The position numbers and the translations under genes are program-made. The notes under the pieces were generated by a model, which saw nothing but the letters and a program-made list of their open reading frames with translations, was not told where the DNA came from and searched no databases. Positions 5,309-8,721 of a stretch of 64,000 nucleotides of DNA are shown one piece after another (the first letter of the stretch is position 1; each line of letters begins with the position of its first letter). This stretch comes from Geodermatophilus poikilotrophus (GTDB lineage Bacteria; Actinomycetota; Actinomycetes; Mycobacteriales; Geodermatophilaceae), in contig NZ_FOIE01000005.1 of assembly GCF_900111455.1 (NCBI RefSeq), positions 62,001-126,000 on the forward strand. The letters run 5' to 3'.

Positions 5309-5500
5309 TCAGCGACGAGGACCCCCCTCGCTACGTGCCCTGCATTCCATCTCGCTGCGACTCCCGCCACCGACACTGAGCCGTCCTAGCGGTCGAACTC
5401 CCATGGATACTTGCTCACCAAGTTGCCCGACGGCCTTACGGAACCCATCGGCGTCTCGGTTCCCTGCACCATGGACAACGAATACTGGGTCTCGAAGCAC
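5309..5500 (-). pseudogene. Truncated start of a CHAT-associated alpha/beta hydrolase
   Basis: A GTG start overlaps the TAG stop of the GroEL-CHAT gene (TAGTG), preceded by AGAGG. The first 30 codons read VLRDPVFVVHGAGNRDADGF and then RKAVGQLGEQV. They closely match the start of the intact hydrolase at 16807-18003 (EPVFVIHGVANHDREAFEAT). After that the similarity stops abruptly, and the frame ends at about 63 codons instead of 398. I read this as a 3'-deleted paralogue whose original arrangement was translational coupling to the CHAT gene. A genuine short peptide is less likely. Confidence 0.7.
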
Positions 5501-8500
5501 TAACCTCTCGTTGCAGCAGGATTGCCATAGATCGTGTAAGCAAGCCATGTCGGGTCTCCTCCGTCTCCGATGACATCTTGACGGGCCTTTAGTGACGCCG
5601 AACCCAGGGCTAGTCCGTCCTTATAGAAGGCTTGGTAGAAGGCATCGGCGAATCCTCTCGCGGAGTTCGAACGGACCGCCCAGTGAGAGCCTATGAAGGC
5701 CCCCGCTCCAGCGCCAATGAACTGCTTTGCCCATCCCATCGTCTGAAACAAGCCTGAGATCTCGCCCGCTGTCCTGCAGGCATTAAAGAACACCAACGGA
5801 TGGGCATCAGCCAACCCCCGCTTCTGCACTGCTTTGGCGAGGTCGCTCGGACGGAAAGGTCCATCACCCATGTTTAGGACCGACCCATCACTGCTCGAGA
5901 ACTGATTGTGGCAGGCGAAGTGGAGAAGCCCGGGTGAAGATTCGAGCAGATGGAGCATCTGGTCGAGGCGCTGCACCGTCCCCAGATCGGTCACGTCTTC
6001 CCCCAGGTGGGCGCGAACAGTACGAACTTCTTCTAGCGCATCGCTCGGCGATCCCGCTGGGACAATGTAGGCAGCACTCTGAAGCGATAGATTGCGAGCC
6101 CGACGCTGACCATAAACTCGGCGGACAACTGGGAACCGCTCCACGAGGAACCCAAGGTCGTTGCTACCATCCACCGCGAAGAGCAACTCCCATGGCACTG
6201 CATCTCGGTCGCTTACGATAGTCAGCGATTTGATGTTGTCCACTTGGGCCCAAAACTGTTCACGGACGGCTTCTGGCACCGCCGTGGCCCAAAGCTCCGC
6301 CCCGAGGTTTTCCAGCCGGTTTCGGATCAGTCGCGGATTGGCGAAGGTGGACCGGCGAGCTGCCATATCGCGCAACTCCGCAACAAGCGCACCGACAACG
6401 TGGGTCGGATCTCCCGCCAACCGCCGAGTCAAGGTGACGGGGTAGAGCGCTTCCCCGATAAGTTGGAAGCTGTATCGATTGTCTTCTGTGAGGCCTACTT
6501 GGAGAGTTACCTCACCAGGCTCCGCGGCGAGCGCGTCAACCTCAACAAGTCTGGTTCGCCCCTCCTCGATGACGGCGCCTGCCTCGACGGAGATTTGGAC
6601 GGCGAGTTCACCAACGAGCGTTCCGCCCGCGAAGGCGCGCACCACCACCGAGTGCAATCCGCTCCGGCTCGCCATGAAACCGAAGCGGATCGGATCCGTG
6701 TCCTCCGCGTTCGGAACAAGTAGGTCCTGATCAAGATTTCCCTCTGGTGTTAGCTCCGGAGCGGAGACGGTGATGGTGATGATCCTCCCTTCGAGCGGTA
6801 TGTCGACGGATCGCATTGCCGAGGATGTCCCGTGAGTTGGACGGGACAGGGTTACTCTGACGAGGAGGCTGAAACGCCCGCCCACCGGCGCTCGTTGCGG
6901 TAGGTCGACCGCCAAGTGTCGCCTCGGCACGTGGTCTCCGCCGGAGGAGCCGGGAGGCTCTGGGGGACGCCGAGCCGGCGGCGAGGATATGGGCGACTTG
7001 GTGGAGTGTTGACCCGCTTGTGATGCGGACTCCTCACTCGACCCGGGGCGGCTGGTAAGCCCGAGATCCCTACTCCTCGATTGGCGTCGGGCGATCTCAG
7101 CGTGCTCGCTTTCTATGCGCTCGACGGCCCCTACAAGCACATCCGCTTCGGACGCCGGCTCCATGACCGTGTAGTCGGTGGCCAAAATCATCGCCGCGAT
7201 CGAGGCGGCGTTGCCGAGCGCGGCCTTGGTGACCTTGACCGGGTCGATGACGCCCTGGGCGGCCAGGTCGCCGTACTCGCCGGTGGCGGCGTTGAAGCCG
7301 GTGCCGACGCCGGCCTCGCGGACCTTGCTCACCACGACCCGGCCCTCGAAGCCGGCGTTCTCGGCGATGCGGACCAGCGGGGCGTCCAGCGCCGTGCGGA
7401 CCGCGCGGGCGCCGGTCAGCTCGTCACCGGCCAGGTCGAGGGCGTCGATGGCCGCGGCGGCGTGCACCAGCGCGGAGCCACCACCGGGGACGACGCCCTC
7501 CTCCACCGCCGCGCGGGTGGCGGCGATGGCGTCCTCGATCCGGTGCTTCTTCTCCTTCATCTCGACCTCGGTGGCCGCACCGACGCGGATGACACCGATG
7601 CCGCCGGCCAGCTTCGCGAGCCGCTCCTGCAGCTTCTCGCGGTCCCAGTCGGAGTCGGTCGCCTCGATCTCGCGGCGGATCTGCGCCACGCGGTCGGCGA
7701 TGGCCTCGCCGGTGCCGCCACCGTCGAGGATCGTCGTCTCGTCCTTGGTGACGACGACGCGGCGGGCGGTGCCCAGCATCTCGGGGCCGACCGAGTCGAG
7801 CTTCAGGCCGACGTCCTCGCTGACGACCTGGCCGCCGGTGACGATCGCCAGGTCGGTCATGAACGCCATACGTTGATGGCCGAAGTACGGCGACTTCACC
7901 GCGATGACCTTGATGGTCTTGCGGATGGAGTTGACGACGAGGGTGGACAGCGCCTCGCCCTCGACGTCCTCGGCGACGATCAGCAGCGGGCGCCCGCCGG
8001 AGGAGAGCACCTTCTCCAGCAGCGGCAGCAGATCGGCCAGGGCGCCGACCTTGCCCTGCACGAGCAGGACCAGCGCGTCCTCGAGCACGGCCTCCATGGC
8101 CTCGGTGTCGGTGACGAAGTAGGGCGAGAGGTAGCCCTTGTCGAACTGCACGCCCTCGGTGACGTCGAGCTCGGTGGAGAGGGTGTTGCTCTCCTCGACG
8201 GTGATGACCCCGTCCTTGCCGACCGTCTCCATGGCCTCGCCTATCAGGGTGCCGATCTCGGCGTCCTGGGCGGAGACGGTGGCGACGCCGGCGATCCCGT
8301 CCTGGTCGGCGACCGGGATGGCGATCGCGTCCAGCGCCGCGTGCACGGCGTCAACGGCGGCGCGCATGCCGCGGCCCAGGCCCATCGGGTTGGCGCCGGC
8401 GGCCACATTGCGCAGGCCCTCGTGGACCAGGGCCTGGGCCAGCACGGTGGCGGTGGTGGTGCCGTCACCGGCGACGTCGTTGGTCTTGGTGGCGACGTCC

Positions 8501-8721
8501 TTGGCCAGCTGCGCGCCGAGGTTCTCGTAGGGGTCCTCGAGCTCGACCTCGCGGGCGATGGTCACGCCGTCGTTGGTGATCGTCGGGGCGCCGAACTTCT
8601 TGTCGAGGACGACGTTGCGCCCGCGCGGGCCGAGGGTCACCTTGACCGCGTCGGCGAGCTTGTCCACGCCGCGCTCGAGCGCGCGGCGGGCGTCCTCGTC
8701 GAACTTGATGATCTTCGCCAT
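5500..8721 (-). CDS. GroEL chaperonin-CHAT protease fusion
   Basis: One uninterrupted frame of 1073 residues. Residues 1 to about 520 are a nearly complete GroEL: TLGPRGRNVVLDKKFGAP, TITNDGVTIA, the nucleotide loop AGDGTTTATVLAQ, the apical segment GYLSPYFVTD, AEDVEGEALSTLVVN and GAATEVEMKEKKHRIEDA. ATP-binding residues therefore look kept, but the usual GGM tail is replaced. A low-complexity linker (about 530-600) leads to a beta-rich domain (about 605-720) and a C-terminal CHAT caspase-like domain. Its dyad would be His938 in LLHFACHN and Cys982 in FFNACRTAGE. The C-terminal 460 residues are a paralogue of the protein at 14046-15848. Start: ATG with GGAAGG upstream; no CIRCE element was found. 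Probable role (inference): a chaperonin ring that senses a misfolded or phage-derived client and controls a protease. The GroEL half has backbone-like high GC; the CHAT half does not. Confidence 0.93.
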   Translation of the reverse strand: MAKIIKFDEDARRALERGVDKLADAVKVTLGPRGRNVVLDKKFGAPTITNDGVTIAREVELEDPYENLGAQLAKDVATKTNDVAGDGTTTATVLAQALVHEGLRNVAAGANPMGLGRGMRAAVDAVHAALDAIAIPVADQDGIAGVATVSAQDAEIGTLIGEAMETVGKDGVITVEESNTLSTELDVTEGVQFDKGYLSPYFVTDTEAMEAVLEDALVLLVQGKVGALADLLPLLEKVLSSGGRPLLIVAEDVEGEALSTLVVNSIRKTIKVIAVKSPYFGHQRMAFMTDLAIVTGGQVVSEDVGLKLDSVGPEMLGTARRVVVTKDETTILDGGGTGEAIADRVAQIRREIEATDSDWDREKLQERLAKLAGGIGVIRVGAATEVEMKEKKHRIEDAIAATRAAVEEGVVPGGGSALVHAAAAIDALDLAGDELTGARAVRTALDAPLVRIAENAGFEGRVVVSKVREAGVGTGFNAATGEYGDLAAQGVIDPVKVTKAALGNAASIAAMILATDYTVMEPASEADVLVGAVERIESEHAEIARRQSRSRDLGLTSRPGSSEESASQAGQHSTKSPISSPPARRPPEPPGSSGGDHVPRRHLAVDLPQRAPVGGRFSLLVRVTLSRPTHGTSSAMRSVDIPLEGRIITITVSAPELTPEGNLDQDLLVPNAEDTDPIRFGFMASRSGLHSVVVRAFAGGTLVGELAVQISVEAGAVIEEGRTRLVEVDALAAEPGEVTLQVGLTEDNRYSFQLIGEALYPVTLTRRLAGDPTHVVGALVAELRDMAARRSTFANPRLIRNRLENLGAELWATAVPEAVREQFWAQVDNIKSLTIVSDRDAVPWELLFAVDGSNDLGFLVERFPVVRRVYGQRRARNLSLQSAAYIVPAGSPSDALEEVRTVRAHLGEDVTDLGTVQRLDQMLHLLESSPGLLHFACHNQFSSSDGSVLNMGDGPFRPSDLAKAVQKRGLADAHPLVFFNACRTAGEISGLFQTMGWAKQFIGAGAGAFIGSHWAVRSNSARGFADAFYQAFYKDGLALGSASLKARQDVIGDGGDPTWLAYTIYGNPAATRG

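Follow-up and report, generated by a model that had tools for sequence, protein, structure and literature searches.

A chaperonin joined to a CHAT protease in Geodermatophilus poikilotrophus, a member of a recurrent GroEL-CHAT architecture

The DNA analyzed here is a stretch of 64,000 nucleotides from Geodermatophilus poikilotrophus (contig NZ_FOIE01000005.1, positions 62,001 to 126,000; the window is this whole stretch), which encodes a GroEL chaperonin fused to a CHAT caspase-like protease. An earlier note, made from the letters alone, had placed such a fusion with an intact His/Cys pair in one frame at 5500..8721. Both the fusion and the coordinates were confirmed; the strand, on which the note was silent, is the minus strand, where a single unbroken ATG frame of 1073 amino acids was found. 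The gene consists of the following parts:

5500..8721, minus strand: GroEL-CHAT fusion gene, 1073 amino acids, ATG at 8721, stop at 5500-5502
7153..8721, minus strand: GroEL1-type chaperonin, residues 1-523 (profile match, residue comparison, tree with sister-genus groEL1)
6922..7152, minus strand: Ser/Arg/Pro-rich linker, residues 524-600, in the place of the His-rich tail of native GroEL1
6412..6921, minus strand: beta-sandwich at about residues 601-770, with strands in the AlphaFold2 model and a DUF7363/PF24063 match below the cut-off
5503..6411, minus strand: CHAT protease domain with a helical part, residues about 771-1073 (Pfam match, model)
5908..5910, minus strand: codon of the catalytic His938 (alignment)
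5776..5778, minus strand: codon of the catalytic Cys982 (alignment)

Residues 2-521 cover nearly the whole TIGR02348 model with 750.7 bits (cut-off 582.1) and the GroEL half also matches PF00118 (230.6 bits), while the CHAT half matches PF12770 over residues 806-1054 with 77.5 bits (cut-off 24). Cys982, already named as the catalytic cysteine in the earlier note, is paired with His938, and both aligned as His and Cys in all of the best 120 relatives among the 741 matches of a CHAT-module search. The CHAT part has a Separase/Csx29-like fold, and its nearest solved relatives are separase and Csx29. The fusion is a complete GroEL1-type chaperonin joined to a CHAT protease in one protein. Proteolytic activity of the CHAT half is putative, and so are ring assembly and folding by the GroEL half. 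The linker is predicted to be disordered, with residues 517-596 below 50 in the predicted local distance difference test (pLDDT) of the full-length model; this model was built from a shallow alignment, residues 1-61 and 73-88 also have a pLDDT below 50, and the predicted template modelling score of 0.43 leaves the relative placement of the domains open. A plus-strand open reading frame (ORF) at 7081-9339 was taken as an antisense shadow of groEL, and no matches were sought for it.

The genome has two native GroELs, namely GroEL1 (L002), with a His-rich tail and encoded next to groES, and GroEL2 (L003), with a GGM tail. At the protein level, the fused GroEL is 90% identical to the GroEL1 of its own genome and 92-93% to GroEL1 of the sister genus. 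A tree built from the DNA of 44 groEL genes grouped it with three sister-genus groEL1 genes (support 100/100), its position among or beside these genes having a support of 81/27 only. The G+C content at third codon positions (GC3) is 97% in the GroEL part (residues 1-527), just as in native groEL (97%), and 65% in residues 587-1073. The GC3 step and the sister-genus grouping indicate that a groEL1 from within the family became fused to a CHAT module of different base composition, which makes this copy a chimera. The native tail is missing: the GroEL1 of the same genome ends with HHTHGHSHGHGHSH, and the fusion has the linker and CHAT there.

A GC3 that falls from 97% in one half to 65% in the other, together with an occurrence in one of 26 congeneric genomes, could also point to a young fusion, or an assembly join, without a biological role. 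We consider this highly improbable, as the frame is open over 1073 codons, the catalytic residues of both halves are intact, the ratio of nonsynonymous to synonymous substitution rates (dN/dS) of the GroEL part is below 0.3, and at least 15 further fusions exist, with His and Cys aligned in all 14 full-length ones. An assembly-derived join of two genes near position 7170, which the earlier note had named as a finding that would overturn its proposal, is unlikely because the base identity to the groEL of the same genome is only 0.907, the tree places the fused groEL beside or among those of the sister genus and the other fusions come from other records.

These further fusions were found in a search with the full-length protein, in which the best 120 of 2363 matches were examined for their domain make-up. 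Fourteen carry both Pfam domains, and P0205 combines GroEL with a shortened CHAT-like tail. The survey of GroEL-length proteins with a C-terminal CHAT domain that the note had called for was thus productive; its second test, absence of the fusion from related genomes, gave a divided answer, since 25 congeneric and three sister-genus genomes lack the fusion and yet other records hold it. The set of 16 fusions, including the window protein, is a lower bound. GroEL-CHAT is not a one-off: the architecture recurs, and it belongs to a large and varied family of CHAT fusions.

In a quick GroEL tree of the 16 fusions and 42 natives, for which only support from the Shimodaira-Hasegawa-like approximate likelihood ratio test was calculated, the fusions form six clusters, and the fusion label needs six changes, five of them forced by well-supported branches. 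In pairwise comparisons, the identities of the two halves do not match each other: P0246 and P0257 share 92% in GroEL and 22% in the tail, P0013 and P0205 share 76% and 19%, and P0205 and P0246 share 68% in GroEL and 53% in the tail. The CHAT module of the window protein is 67% identical to those of P0003 and P0004, which lack GroEL, and 63% identical to that of P0013. Such mismatched half-identities suggest that fusion or swapping occurred repeatedly, on GroEL1-like and GroEL2-like types alike.

Other searches returned few or no fusions. Among the best 120 of 3611 matches to the GroEL half, P0205 alone shows GroEL with a CHAT-like tail. P0259 (GroEL with an AlkZ-like part) appears to result from a frameshift in the GroEL tail that runs on into a neighbouring gene; it was left uncounted and is a warning that some fusions in the set may be artefacts. 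A class-level genome search with a tail fragment gave 0 of 197, and no match covering 80% of the fusion was found among 72,556 plasmid records, five of which contain the module alone. GroEL is common on viral contigs, with 518 confirmed stretches, and in the 80 of them that were examined (L177-L256) no ORF longer than 620 amino acids from the match onward was seen, some of these contigs ending early.

The CHAT module itself is joined to many other partners. Taking the precomputed Pfam column for the best 120 of the 741 module matches, 100 proteins have more than 150 residues ahead of the module, and the partners include kinase domains (46), Hsp70/DnaK (5) and GroEL (1), besides S1, IF2 N-terminal, SMC/RecN, HsdR-type, cNMP-binding, response-regulator, histidine-kinase and NB-ARC parts. 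The N-termini are likewise diverse among 70 module loci from GTDB genomes. Individual cases are the N-terminus of P0077, a RecN shortened in the middle (386.7 bits, below the TIGR00634 cut-off of 407.85), that of P0040, which is HsdR-like, that of P0068, a divergent DnaK, and P0008 with an IF2-N domain and a stretch closest to ribosomal protein S1 of the actinobacterial type (PRK07899). S1-type pieces are fused to the module in both P0008 and P0011, as if placing it at the ribosome, and Hsp70/DnaK-like domains sit on the same module in P0067, P0068, P0073, P0074 and P0075.

GroEL is also found with another effector: P0245 is a TIR-GroEL-GroEL protein of 1186 amino acids, whose second GroEL carries D52E, D87S and D398E. 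As a separate observation, P0124, P0125, P0127, P0129, P0132 and others of about 1080 amino acids, some of them named chaperonin GroEL, show only PF00118 in the Pfam listing; in length and score they look like two tandem GroELs and are possibly covalently linked subunits.

To describe the state of the GroEL half, we used lists of nucleotide-site and client/GroES-contact residues drawn from work on E. coli GroEL. The nucleotide-site residues (GDGTTT loop, D52, D87 and D398) are identical in the fusion and native GroEL1, and the apical contact equivalents Y199, Y203, F204, L234, L237, L259, V263 and V264 are all kept. Comparing the fused GroEL with three sister-genus natives resulted in dN/dS values of 0.26, 0.17 and 0.20, those of the natives among themselves being 0.12, 0.13 and 0.17. 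The fused GroEL thus appears to be constrained, perhaps slightly relaxed. Ten columns without variation among 43 family GroELs are changed in it, and the native L028 likewise has ten such changes. Accelerated evolution of the fused GroEL was rejected in view of this equal count and of a dN/dS to its own genus of 0.26, compared with 0.17 to 0.26 for the sister-genus natives.

The count of substitutions also bears on the idea of a strict decoy: GroEL is attacked or borrowed by phages, and a phage anti-chaperonin or co-chaperonin, and not a client, would engage the fused bait and fire the protease. Host-machine pieces among the partners (GroEL, DnaK, RecN, S1/IF2 and HsdR) and the frequent GroEL genes on viral contigs would suit it, and captured inactive modules have been likened to decoys in related systems by Kaur et al. 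2020 (PMC7159879). A fused GroEL whose substitution load is no greater than that of L028 argues against it, and we regard a strict decoy as decidedly unlikely.

Across the 16 fusions, the client surface is mostly kept: F204, L234, L237, L259 and V264 are present in all, Y199 and V263 in 15 and Y203 in 14. D398, which E. coli GroEL requires for ATP hydrolysis, is replaced in five of the 16, all in one clade (Gly in four, His in one), versus 0 of 79 native GroELs and 0 of 80 from viral contigs; in one further fusion, D52 is Asn. Holding of clients combined with a lack of ATP turnover would make a GroEL a trap or sensor instead of a foldase. The loss of D398 combined with a largely retained client surface in this clade therefore favours sensing over a cycling machine that folds and cuts.

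A fold-and-cut machine of this kind, a quality-control chaperonin-protease whose ring captures misfolded proteins for cleavage by the CHAT domains, is close to what the earlier note had pictured. The window copy does have a full GroEL with native-like ATPase residues, and its CHAT domain is tethered at the GroEL C-terminus, which points into the cavity. We nevertheless find this explanation quite unlikely. Separase and Csx29, the nearest solved relatives of the CHAT part, are specific, non-processive proteases; the hydrolysis residue is missing from five of the other fusions; and the same module on kinases, regulators and RecN fits signalling better. Regulation points the same way. An exact copy of the heat-shock operator CIRCE (controlling inverted repeat of chaperone expression) lies upstream of the native groES-groEL1, whereas the window contains no exact copy and five sites with two mismatches, against 7.0 expected, so that heat-shock control of the fusion was rejected. 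No groES was found within the window at an E-value of 1e-3.

The note had also envisaged a ring of 7 or 14 fused subunits with all CHAT domains at one end. This is sterically doubtful, since GroEL C-termini point into the cavity and its floor would have to carry seven additional tails of about 60 kDa. Mixed rings with native GroEL1, to which the fused GroEL is 90% identical, are therefore at least as likely as rings of fused subunits alone.

Ring formation is also the core of a further explanation, in which GroEL serves mainly as an induced-proximity platform gathering CHAT domains in the way the apoptosome gathers caspases, with ATP or GroES as the switch and no client involved. The equatorial domain is 91% identical to that of native GroEL1 (222 of 244 residues), so its assembly surfaces should be kept, the long linker with predicted disorder over 517-596 would let the tails meet, and NB-ARC and TPR parts, which form assemblies in other systems, occur in some relatives of the module. 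On this model the client surface would be dispensable, yet it is mostly kept, and the loss of D398 removes turnover as a switch in five fusions. Moreover, the partners DnaK, RecN, S1 and HsdR are, to our knowledge, not ring platforms of this sort. We therefore regard a client-free platform as unlikely.

We tentatively lean towards a sentinel, to which we give a little less than an even chance: binding of unfolded proteins by the GroEL part, phage structural proteins probably among them, or its entry into host rings would switch the protease on. Specifically, the GroEL part would bind clients or enter host GroEL1 rings, its engagement would free or cluster the tethered CHAT domain, and the activated CHAT domain would then cut one or a few specific cell proteins, perhaps the neighbouring CHAT proteins, and halt growth, with phage infection as the main threat sensed. 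The mixed rings, the client trigger, the cell targets and phage as the threat are all steps that we infer. They build on the intact frame, the native-like residues, the His-Cys pair, the chimerism, the recurrence, the reuse of the module and the loss of D398 in one clade. The fusion may hence be described as a chaperonin that senses clients and is coupled to a protease, with a role that is probably immune.

A broader form of the sentinel is possible as well, at a chance that we place somewhat below even: a chaperonin-based immune receptor, for which GroEL, DnaK, RecN and ribosomal S1 would have been captured repeatedly and welded to CHAT as phage tripwires, some GroELs having lost hydrolysis while still holding unfolded clients. 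TIR-GroEL-GroEL would then present the same bait with a second effector, and the whole would be a bacterial counterpart of the integrated decoys found in the immune receptors of plants.

The genes flanking the fusion gave a further view of its setting:

1217-4843, minus strand: MobF/TrwC relaxase with a helicase domain, 1208 amino acids (Pfam/profile match)
10052-10765, minus strand: IS256/Mutator-type transposase remnant, 237 amino acids, separating the fusion from the other CHAT genes
10960..14049, plus strand: TPR-CHAT neighbour, 1029 amino acids (Pfam; possible partner)
14013..15848, plus strand: CATASP-CHAT neighbour, 611 amino acids, its C-terminal part 47% identical to the fused module

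The relaxase and the transposase remnant on either side of the fusion fit a mobile region, and the relaxase raises the possibility that the region belongs to an integrated conjugative element. The CATASP-CHAT gene is 5.3 kb away from the fusion, and its frame overlaps slightly with that of TPR-CHAT (10960-15848, plus strand). In a PADLOC scan of 16 window proteins, the relaxase matched helicase models (RecD-like, PDC-S68), TPR-CHAT matched BovA in part (3e-6), and a 26-residue piece of DrmD was matched by one doubtful ORF. Elsewhere in the window, a strong AT skew (0.46 to 0.52) extends over about 1 kb at 29001-30000, the region being otherwise even.

Several of the results weigh against an immune sentinel. 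The same PADLOC scan gave no clear defence system and no match for the fusion, so that the immune reading rests on the kinship of the parts. None of 25 congeneric genomes carries the fusion, nor does any of three from the sister genus, and searches for the CHAT module found it in 8 of 397 order-level and 1 of 394 class-level genomes (own genome counted in both); this scarcity among near genomes makes a lasting function of this copy less secure. In the seven other genomes of the order with the module (L104-L110), the N-terminal parts examined do not read as GroEL. Loss of D398 is confined to one clade, and the window copy, which retains D398, may be a working foldase; the hydrolysis-loss argument reaches it by kinship only. 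With kinases as the commonest partner (46 of the best 120), the N-terminus is perhaps any sensor and not a decoy. Finally, P0205 ends within its CHAT domain.

If the sentinel holds, GroEL, the textbook folding machine, would on several occasions have become the sensory half of a protease alarm, and proteostasis would be linked to bacterial cell death or immunity within a single chain. Capsids of several phages are GroEL clients, and a sensor of this kind would offer a simple explanation for how cells could notice phage capsid production. It would also mean that bacteria build receptors by capturing host proteins that are used by viruses. The idea is directly testable, as it involves one gene, one catalytic cysteine, a well-understood sensor and natural variants without the hydrolysis residue.

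The earlier note knew of no described chaperonin carrying a protease, and our literature survey agrees with it: in the open-licence text searched, 'GroEL' and 'CHAT domain' co-occur in a single paper, for two unrelated genes (PMC8055020), and no GroEL-CHAT fusion is described there. Among known CHAT proteins, Csx29/TPR-CHAT of type III-E CRISPR (Craspase) relies on the RNA-guided Cas7-11, bound by TPR-CHAT, as its sensor, whereas here GroEL is in the same chain. Unlike in Craspase, there is no Pfam TPR match ahead of CHAT in the fusion but GroEL instead, and Cas7-11 had no PADLOC match among the 16 window proteins scanned, a subset of the window ORFs. Separase shares the CHAT fold and is a eukaryotic cohesin protease without a chaperonin. 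CATRA/CATASP caspase systems are represented by the nearby CATASP-CHAT protein with its 47% identical module; the fusion has neither a CATASP nor a CATRA domain, CATASP being confined to the neighbour at 14013-15848, and no Pfam match named CATRA was seen among the window ORFs scanned.

A conceptual parallel comes from caspase-like conflict proteins with modules from cellular subsystems, which are typically inactive and are likened to decoys, and for which a chaperone-based thresholding is discussed (Kaur et al. 2020, PMC7159879). These MoxR-vWA and EACC1-caspase systems resemble the CHAT-module fusions in combining a caspase-like peptidase with swappable cellular modules, and a constant caspase-like part with such modules is what we found for CHAT on kinases, DnaK, RecN, S1/IF2, HsdR and GroEL. 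According to the same paper, the EACC1 partner proteins have an N-terminal caspase with variable parts behind, an order that is reversed in GroEL-CHAT, and their captured modules are typically inactive, in contrast to the native-like GroEL residues of this copy. The term 'GroEL' occurs 0 times in the text of PMC7159879, and no MoxR-vWA, GTPase or EACC1 core was seen in the Pfam-scanned subset of window ORFs, EACC1 not being sought by name. Chaperones with a part in alerting an effector to phage capsid or coat protein are described for the toxin-antitoxin-chaperone system CmdTAC (PMC11618068) and for the DnaJ-dependent bNACHT25 (PMC12169576); there the chaperones are separate proteins acting with other effectors, whereas here chaperonin and protease are in one chain. 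A caspase-like protease joined to a chaperone domain is found in cyanobacterial metacaspases with prefoldin, which differ from the CHAT-chaperonin pair described here (PMC3501461; 'GroEL' 0 times in its text). Taken together, a CHAT or caspase effector with swappable host modules is already known, and what the GroEL-CHAT fusion adds is a chaperonin-protease member with unusual consequences.

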